From a virus, in the IMG/VR virus record IMGVR_UViG_3300009164_000312, positions 1 through 26,355 of that record: a stretch of DNA of 26,355 nt. One strand, written 5' to 3'. The notes beneath the pieces were generated by a model. It saw only the letters and a program-made list of their open reading frames with translations. It ran no database searches and was not told the origin of the DNA. Position numbers and translations under genes: made by a program. Every line of letters begins with the position of its first letter. Positions within the stretch are counted from its first letter, which is position 1. Below, piece after piece: positions 1 through 20,584 of the stretch.

Positions 1-3000
1 CTGCGCCTGCGCCCGGTACACCACTTCCAGCATACGAAAGTGATGCATTGATCCAACCATTTAATGTACTTGCTGTACTAATTGCTGTGCCAGGAGCCGC
101 AAAGAACAAGCCAGATATCTTGCCTGTAAATGTCACATTAAAGTTTTGCAACGATCCTCGGGTAAATGCTCCACGGAAATATTGATTGCCGCCGGTTCTA
201 CCCGAATTCAAGTTAGGACCTACAGGCAAATAACCTGTACTCAAATCAGTGTTAAACCATTTGAGCTGATTCCAACGAACCACTGCTTCATCTGTACCAG
301 CAACGGTCACTGCACCAGACCAGGCATTACTTGTGTAATAATTTGTACTGTTGCTAAATGTTGGGTTGGCACCGGTTGCACCTGCGATTGCAATACGCTT
401 TGCTGTTGTTGCGCCACTTGGGGCAGTGATACCGGTCTCTACAAATCCACTTGGTGTTGATGTAAACACTTGGATTTTCTTGGCCACTGTTGCTGTTGCA
501 CTGGTACCGTTTACATTGGTAGCACTGTACTTGATTGTTTGAACTGCCATTGTACTGGCTGGTGCTACATTGATAGTTTGTGAACCAATGGTATATCGAT
601 TGCCAGTATCTTTACCTGTATTTGCTTTTGGAACACCACCTGACAGGAATGTTGTTGCACCATCCAAATTACTATAAGTTTTGGTTTGTGAAACAATTAC
701 ACTGCCAGTTGTGCTTTCATCATTGGTGTCAGGTGCAATAGTAAATGGAGTTGTAGTGTTTTGATATGTCTGACCTATCCAGTTATAAATCTGTGCGCCA
801 GCCAATACCACTGTGGGACTTCCTGTATTAAAATAAGGAATACCAGAAACATACAAATAAGTTCCTGCTGTACCTGTAGTGAGCGTGGCACTGGAAACAT
901 CAACTGTTGGTACTGAGGTTACGTCATCTTTGACATAACCAACTGCATTGGTACTTCCAGTCACACTGTGAATTAGTTTTACCTGATTGTAACCTGTGCT
1001 TATGCTGCCAACTGCTTTGGTTGCGTATGCTGAAAATACTTTGTAAAAATTGCTAGGATATGTAGAAGGGCTCACAAGGTTAGCATCCCTGTCAGACGTA
1101 ACTACCAAGTTTCCGTATGTACCTGCATCATTGCCTGATGTAAACGAAATACTACCATCTGTGGCGCCATTGAATTCTGCAGACAATGTACCAGTATAAG
1201 AATTATACGCATCAGCCACTGTGTTAGTTGTCACTGTTCCAGAGGTATAACGAGTTACACTTGTACCAGCTGTTGGAATATTGCCACCCGAGTTATCAGC
1301 GGCCTGAGCTGCCAAGTATGGACTGGTTCCTGCACTGGCTGTGCTCATGCTTAATGTTTTTGCACTCAATCCTGCTGGTGCAGCCGGAACAGAATTAATT
1401 ACAATATAATTGGTTTTGGTGTTGGTGTCATCGGTTAGTGTTTCACTGTAGGTGCCTGTTGACAACAGTGAAACTGTATAACTTCCTGCACTAGTGAATA
1501 TGTGATCAATTGTGGATCCAGGTGTACCTGGACCAGTGGTCAACACTCCGCTGTCACTGCCATCGCCCCATGTCCATTTATACGAGTCGGTGTTCAATGA
1601 GCTATTGGTAAATCTCGCTATGGCTCTATTAACTCCATTTAGGTCTGTGAAATAGTATCCAGTCTGTGCGCTGTCGCCTGTTCTGTCAGATGCTGTAACT
1701 AATACACCAGAGAAGATGGCCTGTGGATCAGGATTCACTGTAACTGTCACAGTAGATGTTGCAAACGGGCTAGTAGAATAACCATTGTAAACTTCAAGTT
1801 TTACTTCAAAGGTCTGTGTCACTGCAGGGTTGGTCAATGAGAACTTGTGAGTTATATTGACATTTCTATCACCTGCCGCACCCGAGCCTGCATTAACGTT
1901 TGTTGTTGTTCCGTCACCCCAAGTCCATTTGTAGTAGTTGCCTGAGAAGGTGGCAGTTGCTCCAACACCGGCTGCAGTGGTGTTGGTAAATGTAACATTC
2001 CAACCATCGGGGTTCAATGTGTAATCATTGTTTCCGGTGAGAGTGGTGTAGGTAAATGTTGGACTATGTGTTTTATAAACGTAAACATTTTGTATACCAC
2101 TGGCCACTGTGACTGCACTTGTTCCTGCTGTTGAACTCACAGCTTCAATATATGGCTGGTATCTGGTATCTGCACTACCGGACACATTGTAGGTATGTGA
2201 TTTTGCACCACCGCCTGCACCGCCAGCCACACTGTTTGATGCAATAACATCACTTGTGCCATCACCCCAGTATATCACATAGCTTTGTGCGTTCTGGCTG
2301 GTATTTGTTAAACTTACAGATGTGCCTGTATCCAATGCTGTTTTATTCAGTGTAAAACTTGGAATTGGAGTTGGTGTGTATAATGTAATGTAATTTGTTT
2401 TTGTTTTTGTATTGCTGGCTCCGGTGCCAGAACCACTGCTGTTGCTCACAGTCAGCTGAACAGTAAATTGTCCACCTGACGTATTGTTATATGTTTTTGT
2501 AGGTGTTGAGCTGGTACTGGTTGTACCATCACCAAAGTCCCACAGGTATGAAGTGCCAGTGCCAGTAAATGTTCTGCTGAATGTCATTGTCAATGGACTA
2601 GGTCCTGCTACCGCACTGGCATTAAAATCTACACTGCCCACAAATGTGCCTTTGGCAACATTTAACATCACTTCATTTAAATCGTCTATGGCATCTGTCA
2701 CTGTTGTTGTGGGTGTCCAGATAGATGTTGCACCGGGTGTTACTAAATCAGAGTCCGATGACATACCCAATGGTATAACATTACCCACAATGGCCGCCGC
2801 GCCACCAGACGAAGTGATACCACCGGTAATACTGATACTACCATTAATGATAATATTACCAAATGCACGGATATCTCCAGTGGCATTTAAGTTACCCAAT
2901 CTCACATTGCCATATTCATTATAAGTTACAACATTGTTGTCAACTGTGACATTGCTAGCCAACGCAAATTCGGAACCGCTGTTGTCCCAACCAACGAATG

Positions 3001-5674
3001 CCTGTTTACTGGCACTCCGATAATAGTTTACAAGTATACCGCTGTCGCGTCCGTCATCTGACGTCAACGGCATAGAATTTGCGGTTTTATTTAATTCAAG
3101 TATGGAATCTGTATAGGTAACTGTGGTCGAATTAACTGTTAACGTATTTCCTAGCACTGTTAAATCGCCAGCAACTATCACGTTACCATTGAATTTAGAC
3201 TCTGTGCCGCCAACATTCAAGTTACCACTAATGCCAACTCCGTCACTGACTACCAATGCACCTGTTGTTGTGCTTGTGCTTGTTGCTACATTAGATATTT
3301 GAATTGTATGTAAAATTACATTTGGAATAACGCCAGTTGCGCCAGTTGCGCCAGCTATTCCACGTGATCCAGTATATCCTACGACACCAGTTGCTCCGTT
3401 GGTTCCTGAACTACCAGTATATCCTAATACACCAGTTGCACCAATGGATCCTGTATAACCGGTGTCGCCTTGTATACCTTGACTACCTGTGTATCCAACT
3501 CCAGTGGCACCCATGGATCCTGTATAACCAGTATAGCCTTGTATACCTTGGCTGCCAGTATAACCTATATCCCCTTGTGATCCTGTGTAACCTGTTAAAC
3601 CTCGGATGCCAGTGGAACCTTCTGGTCCTGTTAAACCTGTAGCACCTGTTACGCCTCGAGGACCTGTTGCACCTGTTGCACCACCCGGAGTACCTTGAAT
3701 ACCTTGTGAACCAGTATAACCAAATGCGGCAGCAGCACCCGGAATACCTTGTTCGCCCGCTGACCCTGTGTATCCTACTGCACCACTTGCTCCGGTGGCA
3801 CCTGTTCCTGTAGCACCTGTTACGCCTTGTGGTCCCACTGGTCCTGCTATACCAGTAGCACCCGTTGATCCTTGTGCCCCAGGAGTACCTGCAGTACCTT
3901 GAAAACCTGTGGCGCCTTGATTTCCTTGTGTGCCTTGTGGTCCTGTTAGACCGGTAGCGCCTTGTGATCCAGTGGCGCCTGTTTGTCCTACTGGTCCTGC
4001 TAATCCAGTAGACCCCCGATCGCCTTGTGGACCAACTTGTCCAACCGGACCAGCAAAGCCAGTAGATCCTCGATCGCCTTGTGGACCAACTGGTCCTGCT
4101 ATACCAGTTGCGCCTTGATTACCTTGTACGCCTTGTGCACCCACCGGACCTGCTAAACCAGTAGCACCTGTTGCGCCATTATCGCCATCAGTGCCAGCTA
4201 TACCTGTTGCACCTCGAGTTCCCTGTGGTCCTTGTGCACCTGTTTGACCTGCTAAACCAGTGGCGCCAGTCGCACCATCAGCCCCATCAATGCCAGATAT
4301 ACCTGTTGCACCTTGATTGCCTTGTGGTCCTTGTGCGCCAGTTGGGCCTGCTAGTCCTGTGGCACCTGTTGCGCCATCGGCGCCATCAGTGCCTGATATA
4401 CCTGTTGCGCCTTGCTCGCCTGCGGCACCATCGCTACCAGGTAATCCTCGTAGGCCACGTAAACCGGTTGCGCCGGCTTGCCCGGCTGGACCTGCACCGC
4501 CTGTGGCACCAGTTGCACCGCCTGCTCCGTTTGTGCCTGCAGGCCCTTGTAAGCCAGTTGCGCCTTGCTCACCGGCTGCGCCCGGAGCTCCAGCTATACC
4601 AGTAGCACCAGCTATACCAGCTTGACCCGATTGTCCCACCGGACCTGCAACGCCTGGCGCACCTGTAGCACCAGTTTGCCCCGCTGGACCTGCAATACCT
4701 GCAAGTCCTGATGCGCCTGTGGCACCTATTGCAGCCGCAGTGCCCGGAATACCTTGTGCGCCTGTTGCGCCGGGTAACCCTTGGATACCCGTGGCACCCA
4801 TTTGTCCTGTGGCACCTGCTAAACCAGGAACTCCAAAACCAGTTGCTCCTTGTGGTCCAGTCGAACCAGTTGAACCAGTAAAGCCGGTTGCGCCGGCGCC
4901 AGTTGCACCTTGCGGGCCAGTTGCACCAGTTATGCCCTGAGCACCTGTTGCACCCATGGCACCATATGGTGTTCCGTCTGCACGGAAAATATTGTCTGTA
5001 TAAAGATTTGCTAGATATGCGGCACCCGAAACGCCTAAGCCACCAGCAACTACCAATGCACCAGTTGTTGTACTTGTTGACAACGTGCCATTTGTTAATA
5101 CCAATGCGCCAGCTTCTAGTGTGCCTGCTGTGCCAGACACCACGCCGCCAGCACTAACAGTACCGTTTGAAACATATTTCAATCTGCCAGTGGCATTGTC
5201 CCAAACCATGTATGCACTTCGTTGTACCCCTGCAGATGATTTATAGTAATTGAATTCTATGCCAATGTCTCTACCATCATCTAATGTCAAAGCACTGCCA
5301 GATGTATGTAATTCTATTAGAGCGTCAGCAACACTAGAATTTTGTGCCGCTACACTACTCACGCTACCAGCAATTACTAAATTACCAGTAACAGTTAAAT
5401 CTACAGCAGTCATTGTTGACTGTACACCCAACTGTGTGATATTGGGTTGGTAAGCAGTTGTTATTGTACCACTTAGGTTAGTGCCAGAAATATTCCCAGC
5501 ATTTAAATTGCCAGCAATTCCTACACCACCTGCAACAATTACGGCACCAGTTGTTCTGCTGGTACTGGCTCTAGCATTGGTGATGCTAAATGTTGTTCCT
5601 AGAACCGTAGATGTTACATTACTTTTAGAAGCAAGGTTTTGTAAAGCTGGCGGTTGGCGTAGATATCTAATCAT
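1..5674 (-). CDS. Giant collagen-like / PKD-domain tail fibre protein (3' end outside window)
   Basis: Reading the minus strand from the ATG at 5674-5672 gives a frame that stays open to the left edge, 1891 codons with no stop seen, so the C-terminus is missing. Residues 1-237 carry fibre motifs ([17 protein letters not shown] near 42, [15 protein letters not shown] near 205) and a [13 protein letters not shown] module near 130. Residues 238-783 are about 180 Gly-X-Y triplets, mostly GAT/GPT/GPQ, with a few breaks such as GAGAT and GTAAAI. The TTGALVV (near 800) and DDGRD (near 873) modules then recur. Four PKD-like domains follow, with cores WDFGDGT (near 1048), IYWGDGT (1137), WTWGDGT (1250) and WTWGDGS (1369). 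The rest is Thr/Ser-rich beta-type sequence. Collagen-like stalks and PKD domains are known in phage fibres and adhesins; a host-binding role is inferred. The start lies 5 nt after the upstream stop, with only a weak Shine-Dalgarno. Confidence 0.85.
3332..4963 (-). repeat. Collagen-like Gly-X-Y coding repeat
   Basis: About 1.6 kb of 9-bp periodic sequence on the minus strand encodes Gly-X-Y triplets (residues 238-783 of the giant fibre). GGT/GGC occurs at every third codon, and Ala-Thr, Pro-Thr and Pro-Gln are the commonest X-Y pairs. Longer near-identical blocks of roughly 40-120 bp recur inside it, for example around 4000-4110 and 4200-4400, which suggests growth by duplication. In known phage collagen-like proteins such stretches form trimeric rods; here that is inferred. 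The local GC content is higher than in the flanks because of the glycine and alanine codons. Confidence 0.9.
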
Positions 5675-6121: not shown

Positions 6122-9100
6122 TCACGGAGTATAAGTCCATGTGTTTGTGAACTCTACACCTGTTAAATCATCTATGACCACAGTTCCTCGTACAGTATTT
6201 CCGGCGCTGACTCCAGCACTTAGTATCATTGTTTCTCCAGTTTCTATTAGATTATCAGGCAGTAATGCCACCCTGGCCAGTAGCATGCCGTTGACCATTC
6301 GAGGTTTGTTGTTGTACTGATAAGGTGACCAAGATATTCCATTATTTTCCGATACTTCTACCAGAGATCCAGGAGACACCGCAGTCGCGTAGTCTTGACC
6401 GCGGGTTGCAGTGCCCGACATGCTTAAACTAACTTGTTTATTCAATGATGACAAATCACCAGTCACTACCCAAATTGCATAAGGGGATCTTTCCCATACT
6501 ATGTTAGAAGTAACTGCGATTATCGGTGTGTTTGTTTCAGGATAACGCCAATCATTGTTAAAATGTTTTCCTATTGCATTGTTAATTGTTGCCACACCCT
6601 GTGCTGTATTTCCGTTTTGTACTTCTGCAGACAGTATTAAAGATTCGCCAAGTTCTACTGCGGGCGATCTGACTAGCGCAACCCTGGCCAATAACACTCC
6701 ATTTTGAATAGTGGGCAATGATACCGTACTGTATGTGACCCATGTATTGCCTCCTGTGTTTGACACAGACAATGTGGGCACATAGTCTGAGGTTGCGGCT
6801 GCTGACCCTGACAGACTTAAAATAACAGTTTTGCCGTTGGCGTTGGCATCTCCTGTGATAACCCAATTTGAGTACGTGGAATATTCGTTTACTACAAAAG
6901 AGTCTACAGCTATCACCGGTGTATTTGGCAAAACAGTTGTGGTTGGTGGTACATATGGCGGATAAACAGATACAGCTCCTGTCACTTGCACATACACACT
7001 CTTGGGTTGACCTGCCTGGCCAGTTTGAGATAGTAACGTATACGTAAATGCATCAAGTCCTGCATAATCAGGAAATGGCACATAAGCCATATGTCGTCTA
7101 TCATCTGTGAGTCTAACATATCCATGCTGTGGCTGAGCTAGCACAACAGGTTCTGCGTAACGACTGTCACCAACTCTGATTTTTATTTCTGTGTTATACA
7201 ATCCCAACGAATTAACACCGGCTGCACTATCAAACGGACGAGTTGCTAAATTACCGGTATCCTCTGTGACTTTAGCGATATTGCTACCAAATGCCCAACG
7301 AGCCGGATTGAATCTTTGTACAAATTCAGTTAAACTGTGTATATTCTGTACTTTTACTACTGCGGCATTAGAAGATAGTTTATCAACAGTGTCGCTAATT
7401 ACTGTTACCACACCCGACAATGGTTGGCTAAATTTAATTTTATTATCTCGTGTGATATGGTATGTACTACCAGGTATGCCGTTGGTATTGTGCGTTGCAT
7501 ACTTTGGATTCAGCAATCTGGTTCCGTTGACAGGTGGTACATTGGAAATAAATTTGTATGCTGTGGTACGCATTGGCTCTATGCTGACAGATGATGACAC
7601 ATATGCCTGAGCCACCGGTGGATATATATCGATAGGAAACGGAATGCCTGAAGAAGAAACCCCAAACTGTATTTCACTATATGAATAAAAAGGATTAACT
7701 GTTTTCTGTCCCGGTGCTTCATAATTCTCTTTAGAATTTTTAGCACTACGTGTGGTCCAAATTGTCGCTCCCGACTTGTCTTTTATTATGCCGGCAAGCC
7801 CACGTGTGCCCATCTTGGATGGGTTCCTCATAGATCGCGTGGTCCAAAGTATGTCGCCATTGGAATTTTTAATGGTGGCTGCTATACCACCAGGACCGCC
7901 TGTATTAATACCATTCATTCTAATAACGTGCCACCCTTTAGCAATATATTCCAACCTTGTTGCTGTTGCGGTATAGTTGGCAGCACCATCAGCGGAAGTG
8001 GTTGTTATCACTGTAGTAAATGTTGTTTTTGATGTTGTACTAATTTTTAAATCGCCAAAATCATCCATCGACACTTCTATTGCGTAAATCCCTGTTGCTG
8101 GTGCATAAAATTCCCACTCGTAGTCCATACTACCATTGTAAACTCCGTATGTGTTCAACAATGATGACCAAAAACTTTGTGTATTTGCACTAGTATAGTA
8201 CAAGGGTGTTTGAATTGTGTCATCAAAGTCTTCTGCAAGGATTTTAATATCATACCATCCACATTGTGGTATAACAAAACTATCGGCCTGCGGCGAACCA
8301 TATCTAGTAGAATTGGAACCTGTTGTTTCTAATATCTGGCTATACGACAAAGCTGATCCAATATTACTTGATGCAGTCACGGTATTGGCAGCAATATACA
8401 CATTGGCAGTATTATCAACTGACACAGAAACAGTATGAACTCCAGGGTTAGGAAAAAATACCTGCCAATTGTATTCTGCAGATAGATTTCCTTGCCAAAC
8501 GCTATAGGTATTCAACAAGTCAGACCATGCTTCGTTTGTGGTACCCGGGGTGTAATATGTTAAAAATGGTTTGACTGTGCCGACTGTGATACTGGTTGCA
8601 TTTCCAGAGGTGGCCAGGTCTGATGCATCTGTTAACCCACCATATGCTTCTAATCCGTTTCCTTTTCCACAACCAGGAATTCCAACCAGGGTATATGCAG
8701 AACGAATTTTAAACAATGGAGATTCAAATATTTCTGAGCTTGCGCCACATCTATAGATAGCTTCTAGTAATTCAGGACTTGATCTATTCAAAGAAGGATC
8801 GCCATGTGTAGTTACCACAACAATAAACTGATTGTTTGTTCCATTCAGGTCGTTGGCCAAGCGTTTTACTTCTTTGACATTGGTATCTGTTTTGTAGTTT
8901 TTGTTAAAAACAACACGACCGTCTTCTCGACGGATTCTTACCAAATTATAACTCGCTGTTGTACTAGTTATTTGTTCTCCTGTGGTTTCACTCCAGATTC
9001 CGGCACCCAATGTACCGCTGGTGTCTTTGATACCACGCGATACTGCTGTAAAAGAAAGATTATCTCTGAGGTACACTTCTACCCATTTATGTGCCAACGG

Positions 9101-9883
9101 AGTAAAAGAAAGTTGTAATTCATCTTTGTCGTCTAATATAAACTTCTCTTGACAATCTTTTCTGTAATATCTATGAGAATCATATCCTGATTTGAGATGT
9201 CGAAGTATTGCAGAATTCAGTTGGCTAGATAAACACACATCAACTAACTCAGCATAGCCCAACTGTCTAGGGTGCAATCCGTCTGGTAATTTATCTAACC
9301 ACCCAGGCAATCGATTGGCATCTGCGACCAAGTCACCGTATTGTACAGCAACTTCTCGCATGGCTACAGCATATGGATTTGTGTTCCAGTATTTGTTAAC
9401 TGTAGGGGTTTGCCAAACCATGATCCGTCCGTCGCCAAGTTTTTCTCTTAGAGCAATTAAATTGTTTTTATATTGTTGTACTGGTACATTATTTTTAGCA
9501 TCGTTCATGCCATGATTTATCACAACAACATTTGCATCTATGTTGTCTGGCCAGCGTTCGTTGACCCCATCGGTTCCATTTAACAATTGCTCACTTGTGC
9601 TGTGTCCTGAAGATCTTGTTATTATCACCAGCTTGTATTGTGGTAAGAAAAACTCTATTAATGCACCGGGAGGCTGTGCAACTCTGGCTGTAACAGAATC
9701 TACATTGCTACATACTCCGCACAATGGATCAAACACATCAGGGTCACGGCCACAGATAATGCTGTCACCAAATAACTCAATGTAAATGCGATCTTGTGCC
9801 TGAGACTGTATACTAGTTGTTTGAATTACTAGATCTTGAGTCTCTGGGACAATAACATGGTGATTAGGAACAAGTAGTGACAA
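6122..9883 (-). CDS. SGNH-hydrolase, GG/FAM3-like and Calx-beta multidomain fibre protein, 1253 aa
   Basis: Residues 33-225 form an SGNH/GDSL hydrolase: block I FGDSI with nucleophile Ser41, block III HGMND with Asn127, and block V DGLHP with Asp201 and His204. Such enzymes remove acyl groups from sugars or lipids. Residues about 310-415 resemble the GG domain of FAM3/ILEI proteins, which has also been described in the T4 fibre hinge protein gp35. A duplicated module follows (LLNTYSVW near 456, LLNTYGVY near 575), then paired WTTRS motifs (near 680 and 709), a cadherin/Big-type segment (PDYAGLDAFTYT near 938), and two Calx-beta-like repeats from about 988 to the end. The start is TTG, supported by GGAGG 7 nt upstream; this ribosome site overlaps the end of the preceding gene, whose stop lies 3 nt away. 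A tail-fibre or receptor-modifying role is inferred. Confidence 0.87.
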   Translation of the reverse strand: MSLLVPNHHVIVPETQDLVIQTTSIQSQAQDRIYIELFGDSIICGRDPDVFDPLCGVCSNVDSVTARVAQPPGALIEFFLPQYKLVIITRSSGHSTSEQLLNGTDGVNERWPDNIDANVVVINHGMNDAKNNVPVQQYKNNLIALREKLGDGRIMVWQTPTVNKYWNTNPYAVAMREVAVQYGDLVADANRLPGWLDKLPDGLHPRQLGYAELVDVCLSSQLNSAILRHLKSGYDSHRYYRKDCQEKFILDDKDELQLSFTPLAHKWVEVYLRDNLSFTAVSRGIKDTSGTLGAGIWSETTGEQITSTTASYNLVRIRREDGRVVFNKNYKTDTNVKEVKRLANDLNGTNNQFIVVVTTHGDPSLNRSSPELLEAIYRCGASSEIFESPLFKIRSAYTLVGIPGCGKGNGLEAYGGLTDASDLATSGNATSITVGTVKPFLTYYTPGTTNEAWSDLLNTYSVWQGNLSAEYNWQVFFPNPGVHTVSVSVDNTANVYIAANTVTASSNIGSALSYSQILETTGSNSTRYGSPQADSFVIPQCGWYDIKILAEDFDDTIQTPLYYTSANTQSFWSSLLNTYGVYNGSMDYEWEFYAPATGIYAIEVSMDDFGDLKISTTSKTTFTTVITTTSADGAANYTATATRLEYIAKGWHVIRMNGINTGGPGGIAATIKNSNGDILWTTRSMRNPSKMGTRGLAGIIKDKSGATIWTTRSAKNSKENYEAPGQKTVNPFYSYSEIQFGVSSSGIPFPIDIYPPVAQAYVSSSVSIEPMRTTAYKFISNVPPVNGTRLLNPKYATHNTNGIPGSTYHITRDNKIKFSQPLSGVVTVISDTVDKLSSNAAVVKVQNIHSLTEFVQRFNPARWAFGSNIAKVTEDTGNLATRPFDSAAGVNSLGLYNTEIKIRVGDSRYAEPVVLAQPQHGYVRLTDDRRHMAYVPFPDYAGLDAFTYTLLSQTGQAGQPKSVYVQVTGAVSVYPPYVPPTTTVLPNTPVIAVDSFVVNEYSTYSNWVITGDANANGKTVILSLSGSAAATSDYVPTLSVSNTGGNTWVTYSTVSLPTIQNGVLLARVALVRSPAVELGESLILSAEVQNGNTAQGVATINNAIGKHFNNDWRYPETNTPIIAVTSNIVWERSPYAIWVVTGDLSSLNKQVSLSMSGTATRGQDYATAVSPGSLVEVSENNGISWSPYQYNNKPRMVNGMLLARVALLPDNLIETGETMILSAGVSAGNTVRGTVVIDDLTGVEFTNTWTYTP

Positions 9884-9886
9884 CGA

Positions 9887-12800
9887 TTATCCTCCGCGCA
9901 TGTACCAGCTTACAGGGAATAGTTTTCCTTTTTTAGGCACACAGAAATGTCTGTTATTAAACAAGATTCGATAGTTCCAGTAATCTGTAGTTGCAATATT
10001 TGTAGTCATGGCTGAATAGTATTTACTCTTTTCAAGTACAGCCTCTCCTTCGGTTAGCAATCTACCGCCATAGCTGTAATTGTATAGTTTATCGTACACC
10101 AGCATTGTTCCGTGATCAGACAGTGTAGTAATTGTTGCTCCTAGTGCTGTGCCTTCGTCGCCTCCGCGACCTTGGTTTGCCCACAAACGTATATATGTTC
10201 GGTAAGCACCAACATCCGTAAACGGATCCATGGTCCACATAATATCTGCATCTAACACTGCAGGTAGCGGTATCAATATCTTTGGCTCTACGTCTCTGAC
10301 AGGCAACAGGTTGATTAGGTACTCAGGCTCCTTGTCTTGTACTGGCAACAAGTCAATCAAGTACTCAGGCTCAATATCTTGCGTTGGTAGCAAGTCAACC
10401 AAATACTCAGGTTCTTGATCTTGTACTGGCAAGAATGAATCCACAAAGTACTCGGGTTCTTGATCTTGCATTGGTAGCAAATCAACCAAGTACTCAGGCT
10501 CAATATCTTGCGTTGGTAGCAAGTCAACCAAGTACTCGGGTTCTTGATCTTGTGCTGGCAAGAATGAATCCACAAAGTACTCGGGTTCTTGATCTTGTAC
10601 TGGCAAGAATGAATCCACAAAGTACTCGGGTTCTTGATCTTGTACTGGCTCAAGAGTAATTAAAAATCTTGTTCCGTTAGTATCCGGATCTGGCATGGTA
10701 CTTGTAAAGAACACACTTTCATTACTTTCTGTTCTACCCAAAGCCGATGACTTTTTAATAATAGTATCAAGTCCCTGATATCGTGCTATTAGTGTAACAG
10801 AGTCTAAAATTGTTTCTAGTCCTGCATATTCAGATGCCAATGTTAAATCGTTTAATATAGTGTACAGTCCAATGTAGTCCGATGATATTACAGCACCAAA
10901 GTCGTTGGTAGCACCAAAGTTTACAAATTCAAGTTTTTCATTCACCAGAAGAGATGCATTTTTAATAGACGAAGACATTACTTCGTCGTTGGTCAGGTAA
11001 CTGTAAGTTTTAATAAATCTTGAAGTATAATTGCTTGTAAACGATGTAGCAATATCATCGTACCCTTGTATAAATTCAAAGGTTGGCAAGCTAACTCCAA
11101 AATCACTAAACAACCACTCAAATTTTTCATCCTGGACTGTGAATGATGAATTTATTTCGCTGCCAAAATACAAAGGTGTTTCAAATAAGGATGATGTCTT
11201 GTCCCGTGCTGACTGAGCTTGTTCTGTTGTGAGTACGCTTGTGATTACACTAAGTCCTTGAATAGTCACATCCGGTATTACACCTGACGCTTGCGCTATA
11301 TCGCTGGTTATATTAAATTCCAACCATGATGTTTTTGTGACGTCTGTAACCACACTCAGATTGCCTTCTATTACACTAGGTGCAGGCAATGCTTCATTTG
11401 TTACACCACCGAGCATGATCACAGAGTATCTGTCGGAATTAACAGGAACAATAGGACCAATACGAATTTCTGTATAGGGTTTCGTCGAAGGAACTCCAAG
11501 TATACTAAATCTAAAGTATCCGTACTTGTCCGAGTTTATTGCAGATAACTTAGGAGCACTGAAATAACTATACAGCCCAGATCTTTTTGCTCTGATACTT
11601 CCTATATTAATATACGAACCTGTAAGTATACTCCCAGATACTGTTCCGACTAAACTATATGTTGATGCAGAAGAAATATTTTCTGACATTATTTGACCAA
11701 GATCAAAATAAGTTCCGTCAAACGGCATTGCCTCTGCTTGAATGATACCACTATCCAATACCGAGTCTTGTTTAAATGTTGGAGCTAATGTTTCAGCTGC
11801 CACTGAACTTGACGGAGATTCAGTTTCTCGGGCAACAATCGAGTCAGTACCAACAGAATAATTTTTTTCTTTAACTGCACCCGAAATTATCTTGTTATCT
11901 ATATTCCAGCTGCCAATTGGTATATATACATTGCTGTTAATGGTGGTATCGTACTTTACTTGATATACAATTACATCGTCTTGAAAGTAATGCATCAACT
12001 TCCTGTTTAAAGAAATATTTGCACCAGTTGACACATTAGTAACATAACTACCTCTGTTGGTGCCATTGACTACTAAATTAGATGAGTACATGTCAATGTA
12101 CAAGTTACCTGTGATTGCAGTATTTGCAGTCAATGCTATGTTAGCTGTTTCATAAATTTCAGGATCGATACCAACAAGGTCTCGACCAAGATAATTAGTA
12201 AATGTGTATTCGTAGTTGTCAACATATGGCTCGATCAGTGTACCAAAATCAAGAGCATCAAATAACTCACCTGCCGATGTTTCCCAACTTGTTCTTACCA
12301 CAAATGAGGGGCTCGCTAGTACCACTTCTCTGCGGTCGTATATGCTGGCAGGAGTCAATTGATTGTACACATTGATTACATCTCCTGCATTGAAATCATA
12401 TATGAGTCCTGTATCAATGACTACTTCAGAGCCATCACTCAGTGTACGTGTAAAGATGTATGGGCGACCAGAAACTCTGTAATAATCAGGCAAGTAGTAC
12501 GAATCTGATACCGGTATTGTTATGGCAGTAGTTACATAATCATTCAATAGTTGGTCGGGGTACGGTGTTGTTGTTTCAATGTATACGCTGGGTGCAGAAA
12601 TAGACTGCATGGGAATTGCAAATTGATAATCACCTATACTGATCACAGGAACCACTGTGCTCAATGACGTATTAAATGGTATAGTCAACGACACAGTGTC
12701 ATTTTCTTTTAGTGTAGTACTACCATTATAAACACCACCATTAACAGTTAAATAACCAAATGTTGTCGACATTAATATTGTAGTTGTCGGAGCGAACGAT

Positions 12801-15800
12801 TGATTGACTACAAATTCAATTCTGGCCTGAGTGCCAAATTCTGGGGTTGAATTTGCTATTACTGGAAATCTAGGCATGAATATTTTTGCAACTGGATCAA
12901 TCTTGCCTGGACCAGTATATGTCCAATTTCCAGTGTTAGCAGGACTGAAGAACACAATGCTATTATTAGGCCCTGATCGAACAGAGGTTGACAGCATTAC
13001 CGCATTGCTCGACGAAACTCCAACATTTGCACTAGCTGAATGATTTGAATTTTTATAATAATATTCTAAGAACTGGAATGATCTGCCAACATAAAATGCA
13101 ACTTCGTATGTGTGTTCTTTGGGCATTGGCAATTCTGTTTTAAACAACAGCAATGTACCATTGGCAACGCTTACGCTTGGTGCAACTTGTATTAAATTGC
13201 CTTGTATTACGATTGGTCCAGAATTTATAATAGACGAATCCATTACATTGATTTGTACTTTTTCAAATTCTGCAATAGCAATAGGAGCCGTAGTAGGAGA
13301 GACCACTACACTGGAAAGGTCGGATGTTGATACAATCTCAGTTACATCAACTGATAACGTACCGGTTGACCCCGGAGCTGTTGGAATCAAACTTGAATAG
13401 TATGCGGCAACAAGACCAGGATAGGTAACACCATTGACAGTATTGGTTGACCATAATCCATATAAATTCAGAAGTTTAGACGGATCAGAGTTTAAGTATG
13501 TTGGTCTGCCTCTAAAGATACTTGGTAGAAAATTTGACTCTATATCTAGTATAACTAAATTAGTGGTTCCAACTGTTGATGTACTTATCACAGTGAAGTT
13601 TGCCGTGATAACAGTCTGCGCAATACTTACTATATCCACCGACATTGTTGGATACTGTCCGTTAACCAATGATCCTACTGGCAAAACTGCTCTATAGTCA
13701 GGAGCGGTAATAGTAGGATTAATTGAGCCATCAATGTAAATTGTACCATTGTTGATACCGGCTATAACATAATTATTAGTTATACGATTATATGTTGACG
13801 ATAACAAATAAGTAGATGCATTTGTTAATACATTAGTGACCTTAGAATACTTAGGTATACTAGTTAGACTATAACCTGTAACCGAGTCTAGCACTAAAGT
13901 ATTTGTATTAGTTACGGTAGTTAATACATTTGCTGAGTATGTTTGTGTACCAACAATACCTGTTACTCTAGTAGAAGCAGTTATTCCTGTTCCACTGACA
14001 TAATCACCAATGTTGGCAACAGTTAAATCGTCAACTGGAATATTTGTAGCGTTAGTTATACTTGTTGTTATTGTTGTAGTGTTACCATCAGGAAATGGAT
14101 CTGCAGTGATTCCTACCCAACGTACTTTAAAATATTCAAAGTTACCTGCTGTGCCCGAAGTATAATACACACCCATTGGTTGTGTTGTTGCAACTTGTTT
14201 ATATCTTACATTTAGCGGATTAACATTGGTAATAGGTAATCGTTGGTACACCGGCCCTGTTTCAACATACAATGCATCTACATTTAAGTTGCCAAAGCCG
14301 GCAACAAGATCGGGTGTTGTGTTTCCAAATGTAATGGTTCCTGTGGTACTAACACTTATGTTAGAATACATGGTTCCGTACATGTTCCAATTAAATCCTA
14401 GTTCCAATGGACCTGTATAACCTATCCATGTATTGCCAGTTTGTGGCATTGTCTCTGCTGTTACACTGCCCGATATTCCGGTAGAGACAACATTAGGTTT
14501 ATAATAATCTGTTACTAGTACAGCCGATGATGCTTCTACATCATAATCAAAAGCCGACTCCCCAAATACAAAAGGTCTTCTAAAAACCCCGGCACCTGTG
14601 GCTTTGAAACTTACACCAAAATAATCCCCAGTGTTGGCCATTTGCCCATACGAGCCGTTGATCCAACACGTTAAACCAGGACCTGCAACAGGCATAATAC
14701 TTTCCTGTCCTAACATTTTTAATTTAATTGGTTCGGTTCCGATATGACTAATCGGACCTTTTCTAAATTTGACCGGAAATGGTATAACTTTTGCAATGTC
14801 AGTTAGATCCAGGGTAACAAACTCTTGCAAGCAATGAGTTGCCAATATAGATGTGTCCACTACAGAAACCAAAGTCACTTTGTTATCAAAATTAAGTCTT
14901 TCAATATCCACCAAGTTTGAATATGTAACTGCTGTCAATCCCGAACCTGTTATTTTTAACACTTGATTGCTGTCATACCCAGTTACCCATAGGACTCCAT
15001 CAAACATTCTTGGATAGGATGGATTTATATCTGGTGTTTCAATTGTAGTGTATGTCCCAGATGCATCATTGAATCGTAATAAACGTTGGTTATTAGGGTC
15101 AGGTATTACAACAGCAGTACCAGAGTCTATGGCGCAAGGATTTCCTAACGCAGAGGCTTGATAAATTAGTGTTACTGTGCCTGTAGAGGTCACATAATAG
15201 GCTTTTCCGAGCCTTGTGGTAACAATTGCATCATTGCCTATACAAGCTATTGATATAATTGTTTCTCTTGTTAAAAGAACTTTATTGATTTCTTGAAAGT
15301 TTTTATTTAAAATAAACACACTGTCATAACCAGCTATCCATATGTTACTGGTTGCTGTACTAATGTCTAATCCGGTTACATCCGGATTTAGTTTTGATCG
15401 TAAGTAACTACGTCTGGCATCAATGAATGATTGTCCAGTTGGTGTATCTTGTTCATACCAAAGTCCACTCAATCCAATGACTTGTACAACAGTAGGACTA
15501 AATGTATCGCTGTCAAAATAACGATTGTTAAAAATTATTCTATAAAGTCGTTTATTACCACACAACACAATTGCTTCTGTGATCAATTGATTTGTGTCTG
15601 GGTCCGTATACGACAATTTACGATACTCAACAGGACCAGCCGGCAGTTTAACTCTGGTGGCTAATGTGTGAGTTGTGGTATAAAACAGTACCGCATCATT
15701 AATATGGTCTAACACAATGTGTGTTTTTTCTATATCAACTATGCCGTGTGCACTACCCAGTGGATATTGTGTATTAAATGTGCTGTAATAAAAACTAATT

Positions 15801-16132
15801 AAAAATTCCGTAGGCAAGTAGTTAAACCATTTTTTGGTCGCGTCTACATTTTTTACAGACGGATGATAATTGTTTTTATTAACTACCGCAAAGTATTGCT
15901 GAATTCCGTTAAGATAGTATTCATGGAACTCATGCCCTAAATAACTCGAAGGAGAAGTTACAGTAACAGAAACTCGATCATTGACTGATATTGTTACAGG
16001 GCGCAATGATATCACAGTTTCGTTGATAGAAACTGTGATATTGGGTGATATATTTAATAATTGGAACTGGGTGGAAACAAAGCTAGTTGAAACCAGACTA
16101 TCGGGAGTGCATGCCGAAACACTGTTGAACAT
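9887..16132 (-). CDS. Giant fibre/adhesin-like virion protein, 2081 aa, with tandem repeats
   Basis: No single known family covers this protein. Residues about 110-450 contain repeated beta strands of propeller type (IWIAGYDSVFILN, LWVTGYDSNQVLKITG). A long Thr/Ser/Asn-rich beta-sandwich region follows to about residue 1800. Residues about 1826-1956 are nine tandem 14- or 15-residue units of the form PVQDQEPEYFVDSFL. The last 120 residues form an aromatic-rich domain ending VSWYMRGG. There is no signal peptide or membrane segment. The ATG at 16132 has GGGAG 6-7 nt upstream. The gene sits between the paralogue pair and the SGNH protein and is probably co-transcribed with both. The size, repeats and location suggest a long fibre or adhesin, with the C-terminal domain a candidate tip. 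The function is inferred. Confidence 0.82.
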   Translation of the reverse strand: MFNSVSACTPDSLVSTSFVSTQFQLLNISPNITVSINETVISLRPVTISVNDRVSVTVTSPSSYLGHEFHEYYLNGIQQYFAVVNKNNYHPSVKNVDATKKWFNYLPTEFLISFYYSTFNTQYPLGSAHGIVDIEKTHIVLDHINDAVLFYTTTHTLATRVKLPAGPVEYRKLSYTDPDTNQLITEAIVLCGNKRLYRIIFNNRYFDSDTFSPTVVQVIGLSGLWYEQDTPTGQSFIDARRSYLRSKLNPDVTGLDISTATSNIWIAGYDSVFILNKNFQEINKVLLTRETIISIACIGNDAIVTTRLGKAYYVTSTGTVTLIYQASALGNPCAIDSGTAVVIPDPNNQRLLRFNDASGTYTTIETPDINPSYPRMFDGVLWVTGYDSNQVLKITGSGLTAVTYSNLVDIERLNFDNKVTLVSVVDTSILATHCLQEFVTLDLTDIAKVIPFPVKFRKGPISHIGTEPIKLKMLGQESIMPVAGPGLTCWINGSYGQMANTGDYFGVSFKATGAGVFRRPFVFGESAFDYDVEASSAVLVTDYYKPNVVSTGISGSVTAETMPQTGNTWIGYTGPLELGFNWNMYGTMYSNISVSTTGTITFGNTTPDLVAGFGNLNVDALYVETGPVYQRLPITNVNPLNVRYKQVATTQPMGVYYTSGTAGNFEYFKVRWVGITADPFPDGNTTTITTSITNATNIPVDDLTVANIGDYVSGTGITASTRVTGIVGTQTYSANVLTTVTNTNTLVLDSVTGYSLTSIPKYSKVTNVLTNASTYLLSSTYNRITNNYVIAGINNGTIYIDGSINPTITAPDYRAVLPVGSLVNGQYPTMSVDIVSIAQTVITANFTVISTSTVGTTNLVILDIESNFLPSIFRGRPTYLNSDPSKLLNLYGLWSTNTVNGVTYPGLVAAYYSSLIPTAPGSTGTLSVDVTEIVSTSDLSSVVVSPTTAPIAIAEFEKVQINVMDSSIINSGPIVIQGNLIQVAPSVSVANGTLLLFKTELPMPKEHTYEVAFYVGRSFQFLEYYYKNSNHSASANVGVSSSNAVMLSTSVRSGPNNSIVFFSPANTGNWTYTGPGKIDPVAKIFMPRFPVIANSTPEFGTQARIEFVVNQSFAPTTTILMSTTFGYLTVNGGVYNGSTTLKENDTVSLTIPFNTSLSTVVPVISIGDYQFAIPMQSISAPSVYIETTTPYPDQLLNDYVTTAITIPVSDSYYLPDYYRVSGRPYIFTRTLSDGSEVVIDTGLIYDFNAGDVINVYNQLTPASIYDRREVVLASPSFVVRTSWETSAGELFDALDFGTLIEPYVDNYEYTFTNYLGRDLVGIDPEIYETANIALTANTAITGNLYIDMYSSNLVVNGTNRGSYVTNVSTGANISLNRKLMHYFQDDVIVYQVKYDTTINSNVYIPIGSWNIDNKIISGAVKEKNYSVGTDSIVARETESPSSSVAAETLAPTFKQDSVLDSGIIQAEAMPFDGTYFDLGQIMSENISSASTYSLVGTVSGSILTGSYINIGSIRAKRSGLYSYFSAPKLSAINSDKYGYFRFSILGVPSTKPYTEIRIGPIVPVNSDRYSVIMLGGVTNEALPAPSVIEGNLSVVTDVTKTSWLEFNITSDIAQASGVIPDVTIQGLSVITSVLTTEQAQSARDKTSSLFETPLYFGSEINSSFTVQDEKFEWLFSDFGVSLPTFEFIQGYDDIATSFTSNYTSRFIKTYSYLTNDEVMSSSIKNASLLVNEKLEFVNFGATNDFGAVISSDYIGLYTILNDLTLASEYAGLETILDSVTLIARYQGLDTIIKKSSALGRTESNESVFFTSTMPDPDTNGTRFLITLEPVQDQEPEYFVDSFLPVQDQEPEYFVDSFLPAQDQEPEYLVDLLPTQDIEPEYLVDLLPMQDQEPEYFVDSFLPVQDQEPEYLVDLLPTQDIEPEYLIDLLPVQDKEPEYLINLLPVRDVEPKILIPLPAVLDADIMWTMDPFTDVGAYRTYIRLWANQGRGGDEGTALGATITTLSDHGTMLVYDKLYNYSYGGRLLTEGEAVLEKSKYYSAMTTNIATTDYWNYRILFNNRHFCVPKKGKLFPVSWYMRGG
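10263..10651 (-). repeat. Tandem 42/45-bp coding repeat (acidic Pro-Gln-Asp-Glu units)
   Basis: Nine units encode PxQDxEPEY(F/L)VD(SF/L)L. Units are 45 bp when they end in VDSFL and 42 bp when they end in VDLL. Some are almost identical at the nucleotide level: adjacent 45-bp copies between about 10541 and 10630 differ by one base. Units 2-4 and 5-7 repeat the same order (F-type, QDQ-L, QDI-L), giving a higher-order period of about 129 bp. Units degrade toward the C-terminal side (PVRDVEPKILIPL). All unit lengths are multiples of three, so copy-number change keeps the frame. Confidence 0.92.
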
Positions 16133-16177
16133 TATGCACTCCCATTATTTTTGTAATAGCCAATTATCGATACCCCT

Positions 16178-17419
16178 TTAAGGTGTATAAACAGTGTGAC
16201 TATTTTCAACTGCAATATTATGAGCTAGGTTAGTGGCAGCAGACTGACCTGGAGTATAACCTGTTTTAGTTAAAACCATTAGTCTCATACCTTGACCTTG
16301 GCGCTCAGTGGAATACAATGCTGTATACTCACGTTGATATGGTTCATTGTAAACATTAACCAATACACTAGTACCTGCTCCTACTACTTCGGCGGCCACA
16401 GTGCCAAGCATGTCCAATTCGTCTGCATACTTGTATCGCGGTGTACTCAAATTATTCATAAATGTCACAACAAACTCGCCAGTTTCGGTCAACGACTGTT
16501 GTGGGTACGGATTTATCAAAGCTGGATTATCATCGCTTTGTATTGTGGCATCTTTTTTACGGCTTGGACTAATTACATCAACCTCGCGCACTATAAACTT
16601 TTTAAATGTTTGTGGTGCACCGGTTCCGCTGACACAGTATACAGGGCAACGACTAGTTTCTGCTGATACATTGTTATCTTCTCGCATGGCTCCGCCACCT
16701 CGCACATGCCCGGTCAACCGGTCAACTGGGCGTTGAACTAGTATCCATCTGAAAGGACTTCGACCAGTGGTACCATCTGGATTTACTGCACCGGCATCCC
16801 ATGTGGTATTCCCTTGTGGAATTTCTTCTTGGCTGTCTTCCCAGATTCCAAAGAATAGTCCACGATTGGTCAATGTTATTGTGTAGCTCATTGGGTAAGC
16901 AGACTCTGAATTAAGATTTGGACCTCTGTTTAACCAAATTTGATTAAATCCTGCAACACCGGTACCCGGCGTGCCGCCAACACCTGTCCAATCCTCGCCT
17001 ACATTACCAGCTGGTTCTTTAATAACGGGTGTTGCACTGTTGTTTGCGCCGCCCCTGTCATTCAATTGTGCAATGTCGCCTGCATTGGTAAGTTGTAATG
17101 CAGTAGCAACATGTATCGCTAGTCTACTGTCATCTAGTCTATTAAAACATATTCTCCAACCTGGCTCAACCATTGACAAATAGCTACCGATTTGTTGAGA
17201 ACTTGCCAATGGATCAACGTTGGCAGTTGTAGACAGAATTGTAACGTTGTCGCTACTAGCACCAATGCCATTCTGTGGTTGTCCATTAAATTTAGTAGTA
17301 AAATATTTAATACTATTTGACGCACCGCCGGCAACGTTTCCGGTCATTTCGTTGACAACGTCAGTCATTAACTCCTCGATAGTTAAAAATCCGTATTTTG
17401 TGATATTAAAGCATGCCAT
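16178..17419 (-). CDS. Virion structural protein, 413 aa, shorter member of a paralogous pair
   Basis: It aligns by eye to both ends of the 747-residue neighbour. The N-terminal match is YGFLTIEELMTDVVNEM against KSGFTTVGEVIDSAVNDM. The C-terminal half shares LTNRG(L/M)FFG(I/V)WE, (L/I)QRPV(D/N)R(L/Y)TG, KFIVRE(V/E)DV, TPR(Y/F)(K/R)Y(A/S)(D/E)ELDM and a closing arginine-plus-(L/I)xVL segment. No enzyme motif, membrane segment or signal peptide is seen. The start is ATG with GGAG 9 nt upstream, 16 nt after the 747-residue gene, so the pair is co-transcribed. The family is not a named T4 protein that I recognise. Virion structure, perhaps baseplate or fibre attachment, is inferred from context. 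Confidence 0.78.
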   Translation of the reverse strand: MACFNITKYGFLTIEELMTDVVNEMTGNVAGGASNSIKYFTTKFNGQPQNGIGASSDNVTILSTTANVDPLASSQQIGSYLSMVEPGWRICFNRLDDSRLAIHVATALQLTNAGDIAQLNDRGGANNSATPVIKEPAGNVGEDWTGVGGTPGTGVAGFNQIWLNRGPNLNSESAYPMSYTITLTNRGLFFGIWEDSQEEIPQGNTTWDAGAVNPDGTTGRSPFRWILVQRPVDRLTGHVRGGGAMREDNNVSAETSRCPVYCVSGTGAPQTFKKFIVREVDVISPSRKKDATIQSDDNPALINPYPQQSLTETGEFVVTFMNNLSTPRYKYADELDMLGTVAAEVVGAGTSVLVNVYNEPYQREYTALYSTERQGQGMRLMVLTKTGYTPGQSAATNLAHNIAVENSHTVYTP

Positions 17420-17435
17420 TATTTAGAGCTCCTGA

Positions 17436-19679
17436 TTATATTGGAATATTTCTAAGAACACAGATTCTTAGACCCGAGTTGTAAGGATTATTAGCCGGCA
17501 GTGCACGATATGTCCTTGGTCCGGATTCTCCGTATGCTGTAATAGAAACATCGTTTCCGGCCATACACACGTCTGCAGATGTTTGGCCAATCATATCCAA
17601 CTCTTCAGAATATCTGAATCTAGGTGTTGTTAGGTTATGCAAGAATGACACTAGATATTTACTATCTTCAGTTAATGCAATTTGATTAGTGGTGTTAAGT
17701 ATACCGAAGCTATCTTGTGTGTGAGCATCAGCCGGCACACGGTACGGAGATTGCACAGTTGTAACTATACTTGCTCCGTTTGCTTGTATTGCATATTTAT
17801 TATAACTATTCTGAGGATCTCCCACAGACGGATGTAATACATCTTCTTCTCTGACAATAAATTTCCAATACTTGTAACCAACGCTGTTGACACAAAATAC
17901 CGGTGTGCGCCCAACTGTTAGAACTTTTCCTGTGTATCTATTAACCGGACGTTGAATCAGGAACCAGTTAAAGTAATTATCGTTGTCCGATGTACTTCTA
18001 GCTTTTGTTTTCTGTATAGTACTCCATGTACCTTCCCATACGCCAAAGAACATTCCTCTGTTGGTTAATGCCAACGAATAGTTCAGTGGATACACTTCGG
18101 GGTTGGCTGCAACTCGAGCAGTTCTATTCAAGAACCCTTCATCTGGCTTGGTAGGGTCTGGTGCTCCACGAAGTGCTGCATTAGATGGAAATGCTCCCAT
18201 CATACCTGCACGGTCGATCACAGTTGTACCAGTCACATTCCAGATGTTAGCAATGCTACCATTATCTTGCAACTGTACTGGTGTAGCGGCATACGCAAGT
18301 AACTGCTGAGGACCGGCACTTGGAGTTGTTGCATTTACCACCACATCAAAGGCAACACGCCATGGTTGAACTTCAGCAAACTTAAAGTGCAATGACTCGG
18401 GCTGCGGACCAGACGGTAATGGCAATGTTTGATTACTACTTAATACTACATTGGCAGTTGTGGGGCCAGTGGGTGTTACAGAAACTACAGTAACATATCC
18501 GTCAATTGACCCATTCTCTTTTGTACTTGTTACCGTTTGTCCAGCATAGATAACTGGATTAAAGTTATTTTGTGTATTTAAGTCTCTAACCTGCACAAAA
18601 TTAGAATTAGATGTAGCTACACTAACCTTACCAAATACTCCAACAGGATCATTCAATGGGTCAACAGAAGCACCTGCTTCCAAGACCACTTTGAATCCAG
18701 CTGGTAATACTGTTGTGGTATCGCTAATTGTTAAACCAGAACCTCTCAGTGCAATATTATCATCGATTGTAATATTAATCGGAGTACTTACAGTGAACCA
18801 TGTGTATTCTTTAGTTTGTTCTAACCATGGCCCGGTATAGCTAGTAGAAGTTACTGTGTCAGTTGGCGGTGTTAGACTACTTATTTGTCTAATACCAGTT
18901 ACAACTTCGATTGGAAATATACCTGTAATAGTTGTTCCAGGCGGAATATTACTAGACGGAGAACTTGTTTGTCCTGGCTCAGTTAGAGATATTGTTTGAC
19001 CAATAAAAACATTAGCATTACCACTTATTGCTTCAGTGTACAGTATATCGACCCAAAATCCCGAACGTGGCCATTTGGTGGTTTTACCACCTGTACCATT
19101 GGTTTTTGTCCACTGAACGGGCGGAGTATTTGTTTGGTCTTGGTTACTAGAATACGCCGGGATCAGTGTTTGAGATGCAGCGACAGCAACCGGAGCTGTA
19201 CCAGTTGATGGCGTAGTAATGTTGCCCAAGGTAGTTAAGTAACGGGTAGGGGTTGTCCGAGTCACAAATGCAGTTGGCTTTGATGCCCCGAATGCCGCGG
19301 GCGGATTGCCTATATACGGTCCAACATTGGTTATCGAGACTGCTGTAACTGTACCATTTGCACCAATACTGCTAACTGCAATATTGGCAGTAGTTCCAAC
19401 TTTAGTTTCTAAAGTACCAACTTTTAACTGGTCACCAACTTTATAGCCGGCGCCACCATCGACCACTGTAATTTTTCTTTCAGCTGGTGGCCATTCTGCT
19501 GGCATAGTTACGCCACTACTTGTGGTAATAATCAAATTACTTACACTAAACGCACCAAGTGTCAGCATGTCGTTTACTGCCGAATCGATTACTTCGCCTA
19601 CTGTTGTAAACCCACTTTTCTCAACCGCGTAAAAGTTTACGTCAGGTTTAGAAACTTCATATATTGTACGTGTTGCCAT
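17436..19679 (-). CDS. Virion structural protein, 747 aa, longer paralogue with central insertion
   Basis: Residues 1-45 and about 435-747 correspond to the whole 413-residue neighbour. The central part, roughly residues 45-435, is extra. It contains a GAGYKVGD motif (near 77) followed by GTVTAVSITNVGPY (near 109), a phrase common in phage fibre and baseplate proteins, and then Thr/Ser/Pro-rich beta-type sequence. The core motifs include LTNRGMFFGVWE (near 538), LIQRPVNRYTG, KFIVREEDV, TPRFRYSEELDM and LRICVLRN near the end. The start is ATG with AAGGAG upstream, about 55 nt downstream of a GATAAATA box. The function is unassigned; a structural role, perhaps presenting the fibre genes that follow, is inferred. 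Confidence 0.78.
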   Translation of the reverse strand: MATRTIYEVSKPDVNFYAVEKSGFTTVGEVIDSAVNDMLTLGAFSVSNLIITTSSGVTMPAEWPPAERKITVVDGGAGYKVGDQLKVGTLETKVGTTANIAVSSIGANGTVTAVSITNVGPYIGNPPAAFGASKPTAFVTRTTPTRYLTTLGNITTPSTGTAPVAVAASQTLIPAYSSNQDQTNTPPVQWTKTNGTGGKTTKWPRSGFWVDILYTEAISGNANVFIGQTISLTEPGQTSSPSSNIPPGTTITGIFPIEVVTGIRQISSLTPPTDTVTSTSYTGPWLEQTKEYTWFTVSTPINITIDDNIALRGSGLTISDTTTVLPAGFKVVLEAGASVDPLNDPVGVFGKVSVATSNSNFVQVRDLNTQNNFNPVIYAGQTVTSTKENGSIDGYVTVVSVTPTGPTTANVVLSSNQTLPLPSGPQPESLHFKFAEVQPWRVAFDVVVNATTPSAGPQQLLAYAATPVQLQDNGSIANIWNVTGTTVIDRAGMMGAFPSNAALRGAPDPTKPDEGFLNRTARVAANPEVYPLNYSLALTNRGMFFGVWEGTWSTIQKTKARSTSDNDNYFNWFLIQRPVNRYTGKVLTVGRTPVFCVNSVGYKYWKFIVREEDVLHPSVGDPQNSYNKYAIQANGASIVTTVQSPYRVPADAHTQDSFGILNTTNQIALTEDSKYLVSFLHNLTTPRFRYSEELDMIGQTSADVCMAGNDVSITAYGESGPRTYRALPANNPYNSGLRICVLRNIPI

Positions 19680-19771: not shown

Positions 19772-20584
19772 TTATACTGTACGCCAGGCCGAATTGGCGT
19801 AAACATGTAGTTTATTGTCTGTTGTCAAGAAAACCAGCTTGCCTTCGTACACTCTAGTGGGCAATGTTTGTACAATTTCCATACCCGGACGACTGTCTGT
19901 CACTGACGGGAAATACAACAGGCTCAAAGTGATCGGCGTTGCCGCTTCCAAGGAACTGATGCTACTCACAGTGACATAAACATTGGGGTTTGGTGGATCT
20001 TCCATGTTGGCAAAAATGCTGTATTGCCTGCTTTGGAAACTACTGCCATCGTTTAGCACAACAGACCCGTCGTCAACCAGGTGATCCGCTGTTGCAATAA
20101 ATGTATAAGGATTAGGCTCGTTTCTATCAGGTGTTCCAAACACTTCTACTTTTACCGGACGGCTCACACTGACCTGGTAAACAATAGAACTGATACCCAA
20201 TGGTAACACTAAGTCAACACTGCCATATCCTTGTAAGCTGGTTATGGTTGTTTCATAACGTCGTCTGCGTATGCTAGATTCTGGCGACCCAGGTGCCCAA
20301 TAAGTAACTGTACTACCAGGGCCTTCTGCAGTTAGTACAGCACCCGACGGTGGTTCTTCAAACGGCAGTTGATAGAATGTGGTTGTTGCATTAGCAACAA
20401 ATAGATTACCAGTTACCCGTACATCACCAACAACATCAAGGGCAACGTTAGGAGTAGTTGTGTTGACACCAACTCGTCTGTTGGTAACATCAAAGTAGAC
20501 AAGGTCGCCATCAATTGATAAATTTATTCCTTGCCTTTCCAGGTCTGGAACCAGCATTGGGCCCGATATGCGTCCTATTGCCAT
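19772..20584 (-). CDS. Fibre-like structural protein, 270 aa
   Basis: The N-terminal 65 residues carry a typical phage fibre segment: GINLSIDGDLVYFDVTNRR, then VGVNTTTPNVALDVVGDVRV and TGNLFVAN. This trimeric-fibre style sequence commonly precedes variable tips. The middle (YETTITSLQGYGSVDLVLPL) and the C-terminal part (LVFLTTDNKLHVYANSAWRTV) look beta-rich. The ending resembles the 'x-LYV/HVY-x-NxxWR' phrase found in the neighbouring 137-residue protein (ELYVDNEWRAF). The start is ATG with GGAGAA 7 nt upstream. It belongs to the small-fibre operon 22995-19772 and is its last gene. A fibre or fibre-adaptor role is inferred; no T4 orthologue is recognised. Confidence 0.78.
   Translation of the reverse strand: MAIGRISGPMLVPDLERQGINLSIDGDLVYFDVTNRRVGVNTTTPNVALDVVGDVRVTGNLFVANATTTFYQLPFEEPPSGAVLTAEGPGSTVTYWAPGSPESSIRRRRYETTITSLQGYGSVDLVLPLGISSIVYQVSVSRPVKVEVFGTPDRNEPNPYTFIATADHLVDDGSVVLNDGSSFQSRQYSIFANMEDPPNPNVYVTVSSISSLEAATPITLSLLYFPSVTDSRPGMEIVQTLPTRVYEGKLVFLTTDNKLHVYANSAWRTV

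Follow-up and report, generated by a model that had tools for sequence, protein, structure and literature searches.

A putative virion-attached SGNH esterase-adhesin in the fibre locus of a T4-like jumbo phage contig, with a GG domain lacking sugar-site residues

What is the function of a phage protein that joins an SGNH hydrolase to a GG (FAM3/ILEI) domain and a long series of repeats? This question is raised by a virus record from IMG/VR, IMGVR_UViG_3300009164_000312, of which positions 1 to 26,355 were analyzed (the whole of this 26,355-nucleotide stretch is referred to here as the window). A single open frame running on the minus strand from position 9883 to 6122, with its stop codon at 6122-6124, specifies a multidomain protein of 1253 amino acid residues. 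We consider it reasonably probable that this is a virion-attached, receptor-binding SGNH O-acetyl (acyl) esterase-adhesin, in which the GG domain forms a rigid connector devoid of its sugar site. The protein would be carried on the phage virion, and as the phage adsorbs its SGNH serine esterase would strip the polysaccharide of the host surface of acetyl (or other acyl) esters. Its PA14-like, immunoglobulin (Ig)-like and other repeats would act as an adhesive or attachment stalk, binding glycan or holding the protein on the virion. De-acylation of host polysaccharide by a virion protein had been proposed in an earlier note on this DNA; it is well supported by the family, the fold and the position in a fibre locus, from which we infer the activity.

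The SGNH domain comprises residues 35-214 (9242..9781, minus strand), as delimited by Pfam, sequence alignments and an AlphaFold model. Residues 37-211 match PF13472 (Lipase_GDSL_2) with an E-value of 5e-12 and 47.1 bits against a cut-off of 32.9, and PF00657 (Lipase_GDSL; E 5.6e-7) also scores above its curated cut-off. Ser41 in the GDS motif of block I (codon at 9761-9763), Asn127 in block III (9503-9505), and Asp201 (9281-9283) and His204 (9272-9274) in block V had been read in the earlier note as an apparently intact catalytic set. They are invariant in two alignments, one of six rows including five phage homologues and the other of 13 rows including twelve homologues from viral contigs. 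The domain and its aligned homologues have in common the motif QLxxGTDG. The SGNH and GG domains were modeled separately; the SGNH model, based on the 13-row alignment, has a predicted local distance difference test (pLDDT) score of 76, with most of the core at 85-96 and low values at residues 1-28 and 51-71. It reveals the flavodoxin-like alpha/beta/alpha core on which the claim of an SGNH enzyme depended, superimposing on 1yzf with a Z-score of 19.4 and a root-mean-square deviation of 2.4 over 171 residues. The Z-scores to a CE3 acetyl esterase (5b5s) and to Axe2 are 18.9 and 18.5, and those to SGNH enzymes overall, the phage protein Moo19 Gp82 among them, are 16-19.

The relatives of this domain point to phage fibers. 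Its profile matches the solved phage tail-fiber SGNH domains 9lna (E 9.9e-12) and 9d80 (E 2.4e-10), and the best neighbor among viral models is the SGNH protein A0A6J5T0B2 of an uncultured Caudovirales phage, followed by the tail spike of Pectobacterium phage PP99, with the Possum spike also close. A0A6J5T0B2 is the closest known relative; the comparison, which covers the SGNH domain within BFVD fragment _1 (815 residues), gives 62% identity over 228 aligned columns. The SGNH tail spike gp63.1 of phage G7C deacetylates O-antigen, an activity required for infection (PMC10743462); the PP99 and Possum spikes are likewise reported to be polysaccharide deacetylases (titles listed among the citations of PMC10743462; PMC9569702), and two Klebsiella prophage SGNH fibers are active esterases (PMC13123978). 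Deacetylation by SGNH domains of phage fibers is already established and is increasingly recognized as a common entry strategy; the reading favored here would bring a jumbo T4-like lineage under this strategy, with an enzyme whose N-terminal position is unusual. Like the gp63.1-type spikes (PP99, Possum and the receptor-binding proteins of Klebsiella prophages included), the window protein is a large phage protein of a fiber locus with intact Ser/Asn/Asp/His blocks. Unlike them, it carries its enzyme at the extreme N-terminus with no preceding anchor, followed by the GG domain, PA14-like and other repeats. Since no anchor domain precedes the enzyme, which begins at residue 35, the protein would probably be attached through the C-terminal half or through the adjacent 2081-residue and collagen-like partners, leaving the esterase at the free end.

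Close homologues of the SGNH domain occur as proteins on their own, with a lipoprotein-like N-terminus, and are encoded in PBR31 and Magia beside lysis and spanin genes. This would suit a secreted or cell-bound esterase which acts in the infected cell, in O-antigen conversion or release, and has no part in the virion. The window protein, however, has no signal or lipoprotein start, its enzyme is followed by more than 800 residues made up largely of repeat domains, and the gene lies within a structural operon, such that we regard this role as very unlikely. The stand-alone esterases are of interest in themselves. They were found on phage or prophage-type contigs (loci L006, L009, L052-L055 and L059-L066), many have lipoprotein-like N-termini, those of PBR31 and Magia adjoin lysis genes, and they share QLxxGTDG with the SGNH domains of phage fibers; they are possibly surface-polysaccharide conversion genes.

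The GG/FAM3/ILEI module occupies residues 266-424 (8612..9088, minus strand). PF15711 (ILEI) matches residues 312-404 with an E-value of 6e-7, scoring 30.3 bits in the whole protein and 34.5 bits when the segment is excised (cut-off 27), and the model, built from a 31-row alignment (pLDDT 87), has a Z-score of 17.6 to the stem domain of human POMGnT1 (5ggf) and of about 16 to FAM3A, FAM3B and FAM3C (16.6 to FAM3B). The GG/FAM3-like domain proposed in the earlier note, and the ILEI match which it expected within residues 300-420, are hence both present. ILEI above the cut-off and the same fold (Z 16-17.6) are features shared with FAM3, the POMGnT1 stem, TMEM2/CEMIP and the GG domains of phage tail tips. 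The window copy differs from these relatives in the loss of the Arg and Asp of the sugar site and in its fusion to an SGNH domain, which occurs in none of the 23 other viral GG proteins among the 24 scanned. GG modules were found at 41 viral loci; scans of bacterial genomes and plasmids gave two GG loci and one match, respectively, the latter annotated as a phage tail protein.

In POMGnT1 the sugar is held by Arg129, Asp179 and Arg207 (PMC9802357). Alignment with FAM3B and POMGnT1 places their equivalents at residues 310, 361 and 394 of the window protein, where Ala310 and Gly361 are found in place of Arg and Asp and Arg394 is retained; two of the three sugar-site residues are lost, and a further position has Lys407 for Glu. 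The 36 other distinct viral GG domains contain Arg at position 310 in 32 cases, Asp at 361 in 35, Arg at 394 in 30 and Glu at 407 in 35. As judged from these residues, the pattern argues against POMGnT1-type sugar binding by the window copy. In the GG tree the latter groups, inside other GG proteins, with two baseplate-type proteins (L011 and L013; support 98/94). L013 is encoded in the baseplate region of a T4-like phage, with wedge-initiator, fiber and hub-lysozyme genes as its neighbors. Because these nearest relatives retain Arg, Asp and Glu, the window domain seems to have lost its sugar-site residues on its own. With the fold retained but the POMGnT1-type sugar site lost, the GG domain is most likely a rigid connector between the SGNH domain and the repeats, not a sugar-binding module.

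An enzyme joined to a carbohydrate-binding module is a common arrangement, and the GG domain might be an active module of this type, placing the esterase on its polysaccharide, a role proposed for the POMGnT1-stem-like CBM_1 in Tal proteins of streptococcal phages. The POMGnT1 stem, FAM3A, FAM3C and Fam3L2 all bind sugars (PMC9802357); CBM_1 of TP-778L Tal, likewise a phage adhesion-device domain with the POMGnT1-stem fold, was so named and has the Arg and Asp conserved (PMC9437275), as do most viral GG relatives. The window protein differs from CBM_1 in precisely these residues, with Ala310, Gly361 and Lys407 standing in place of Arg, Asp and Glu, and the presence of all three in L011 and L013 makes the loss specific to the window branch; nor does PMC9437275 mention an SGNH enzyme. 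We therefore think an active binding module unlikely, and continue to favor a connector.

The earlier note also suggested that the GG domain may mark a hinge, as in gp35 of phage T4. Both proteins do contain ILEI (E 1.1e-8 for gp35), and eight of nine gp35 proteins are, like the window protein, without both the Arg and the Asp, Gly being usual at the Asp position in gp35 and present there in the window protein. Their loss in the gp35 proteins would agree with GG domains of this kind being structural. Yet gp35 is a connector of 372 residues, and no likeness to it was found in the window protein outside the GG domain. In the GG tree all gp35 proteins form a clade of their own (100/99), separate from the window domain and L011/L013 (98/94), and membership of the window protein in the gp35 family was rejected on this basis. 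The comparison with gp35 is thus indirectly supported as a fair guess about role, with no claim of homology. A single gp35 among the nine, that of Stenotrophomonas phage IME13 (L167), retains both Arg and Asp and may represent an ancestral, sugar-binding gp35.

All parts of the window protein are known; the novelty lies in their SGNH-GG-PA14-like arrangement and in a GG domain whose sugar site was lost in parallel. We offer more tentatively, as a possibility we would not press, the fuller proposal that a GG domain has here lost its sugar site within a virion enzyme and become a rigid connector, in parallel to T4 gp35 and independently of it, in a new layout with the esterase at the free N-terminal end. 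The residue pattern of the viral GG domains points to a simple way of separating, by sequence, sugar-binding from structural GG modules, one which is relevant to gp35 hinges as well as to the human FAM3, POMGnT1 and TMEM2 proteins.

Downstream of the GG domain are several repeats, all encoded on the minus strand. Residues 435-556 (8216..8581) and 557-690 (7814..8215) constitute a repeat pair with 29% identity (alignment score 137, versus 35 +/- 6 for shuffled sequences) that resembles PA14, although PF07691 matches it weakly (15.8 bits, E 0.012, against a cut-off of 24). Residues 905-968 (6980..7171) form a Big_9 or tandem-95-like Ig segment with scores under the curated cut-offs. This segment, the PA14-like pair (435-690) and the missing sugar-site residues of the GG domain had been overlooked in the earlier note, which described the tail of the protein as Calx-beta-like repeats. 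Residues 985-1115 (6539..6931) and 1116-1253 (6125..6538) are indeed true tandem repeats, with 46% identity and a score of 270 versus 35 +/- 6.6 for shuffles, and their GTAxxGxDY-like motif is suggestive of Calx-beta. PF03160 (Calx-beta), however, gave no match in the window record up to an E-value of 10, Pfam, NCBIfam and PDB searches also gave none, and the Calx-beta identity is unsupported. A profile of these C-terminal repeats returned nothing useful from PDB sequences, and searches of phages and viral contigs found relatives neither for them nor for the PA14-like pair.

The gene has the same strand and order as the capsid, fiber and collagen-like genes and is encoded within the structural and fiber locus of the virion. 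Phage heads can carry collagen, PKD and Ig-type domains as decoration, and the protein might be displayed on the capsid as a head fiber or decoration, not on the tail. Upstream of the locus, and in the same orientation, is the major capsid gene, and the two PA14-like repeats match an extension of the major head protein family phrog_773 (E 4e-6 and 7e-6). Against this, the collagen-like neighbor matches tail-fiber families, two sheath-like genes lie upstream, and the SGNH domains found in solved phage proteins belong to tail fibers. Capsid display appears to us improbable. The PA14-like module (7814-8581) may in any case be an adhesive module that is also used on phage heads.

Several observations weigh against a virion-attached esterase-adhesin. 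Only 34 residues, mostly with low pLDDT, come before the SGNH core, and they contain no recognizable virion anchor, unlike the fiber relatives L056 and L057, which have about 165-175 residues ahead of this domain. For part of the C-terminal half the searches identified no fold. The SGNH-GG protein is absent from 31 records of sister phages, many of them fragments, and is therefore not essential to this phage group; presence in one record and absence from its sisters is typical of fast-exchanging host-range genes. Finally, the column of the block II oxyanion glycine is occupied by His94, with Gly93 adjacent, a slight anomaly; some relatives have Ser there. This last feature would suit a dead enzyme retained as a binding domain, as would the many phage depolymerase candidates that have had no detectable activity in tests (PMC13123978). 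With Ser41, Asn127, Asp201 and His204 intact and the fold complete, a dead enzyme is in our estimation highly improbable, and an active esterase is preferred.

The gene begins with TTG (9881..9883), a start proposed in the earlier note and one that bears scrutiny. A Shine-Dalgarno sequence, GGAGGA (9890..9895), is located 6 nucleotides upstream and overlaps the end of the preceding 2081-residue gene. All other complete genes of the operon start with ATG; here the next in-frame ATG, GTG or TTG codons are 50 and 54, and either would delete the GDS motif. The TTG start is credible because no later start codon retains this catalytic motif. No close relatives were found in viral contigs with either the full-length protein or the SGNH domain alone, and a search of PDB sequences with the whole protein gave nothing useful.

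The capsid protein of this phage shows 65-70% identity to its counterparts in Sinorhizobium phage Phosso, Vibrio phage 2.275.O, PA5oct/MIJ3 (Arenbergviridae) and Erwinia jumbo phages. Its identity to capsid proteins of viral contigs, one of them on a 374-kb record, reaches 89%; the phage is assigned as an Arenbergviridae-like, T4-like jumbo phage. The genes on either side of 6122-19679 are neighbors in sister contigs. Because the two flanks adjoin each other there, the intervening block of two sheath-like genes, the 2081-residue gene and the SGNH gene appears to have been inserted or exchanged in the fiber locus, perhaps including a 118-residue gene. Chimerism of the contig or an assembly artefact was considered unlikely, the flanks being neighbors in sister phages and the base composition being fairly even.

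The 2081-residue gene (9887..16132, minus strand) has its stop 3 nucleotides before the TTG and is likely a co-translated structural partner of the SGNH gene. Its product is without family matches; near the C-terminus it has about eight tandem repeats of 14-15 residues like PVQDQEPEYFVDSFL, and its residues 1826-1955 share 40% identity with a protein of the Chlorobiaceae phage CV-1-33. The tandem sheath-like genes (16178-17419 and 17436-19679, minus strand) encode proteins of 413 and 747 residues which belong to phrog_12249 and are 30% identical to each other. This pair sits in the fiber locus of a phage with a T4-like capsid, it is matched most closely by the paired sheath genes, also in tandem, of Lu11 and its relatives, and eight sister records of up to 374 kb contain no match to phrog_12249; an exchange of tail modules is possible. 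Downstream of the SGNH gene, and open at the window end, lies a gene (2..5674, minus strand) for a long collagen-like fiber with PKD domains and a phrog_8578-type C-terminus. In sister contigs a start resembling 19772-20584 and the collagen-like fiber can form one gene.

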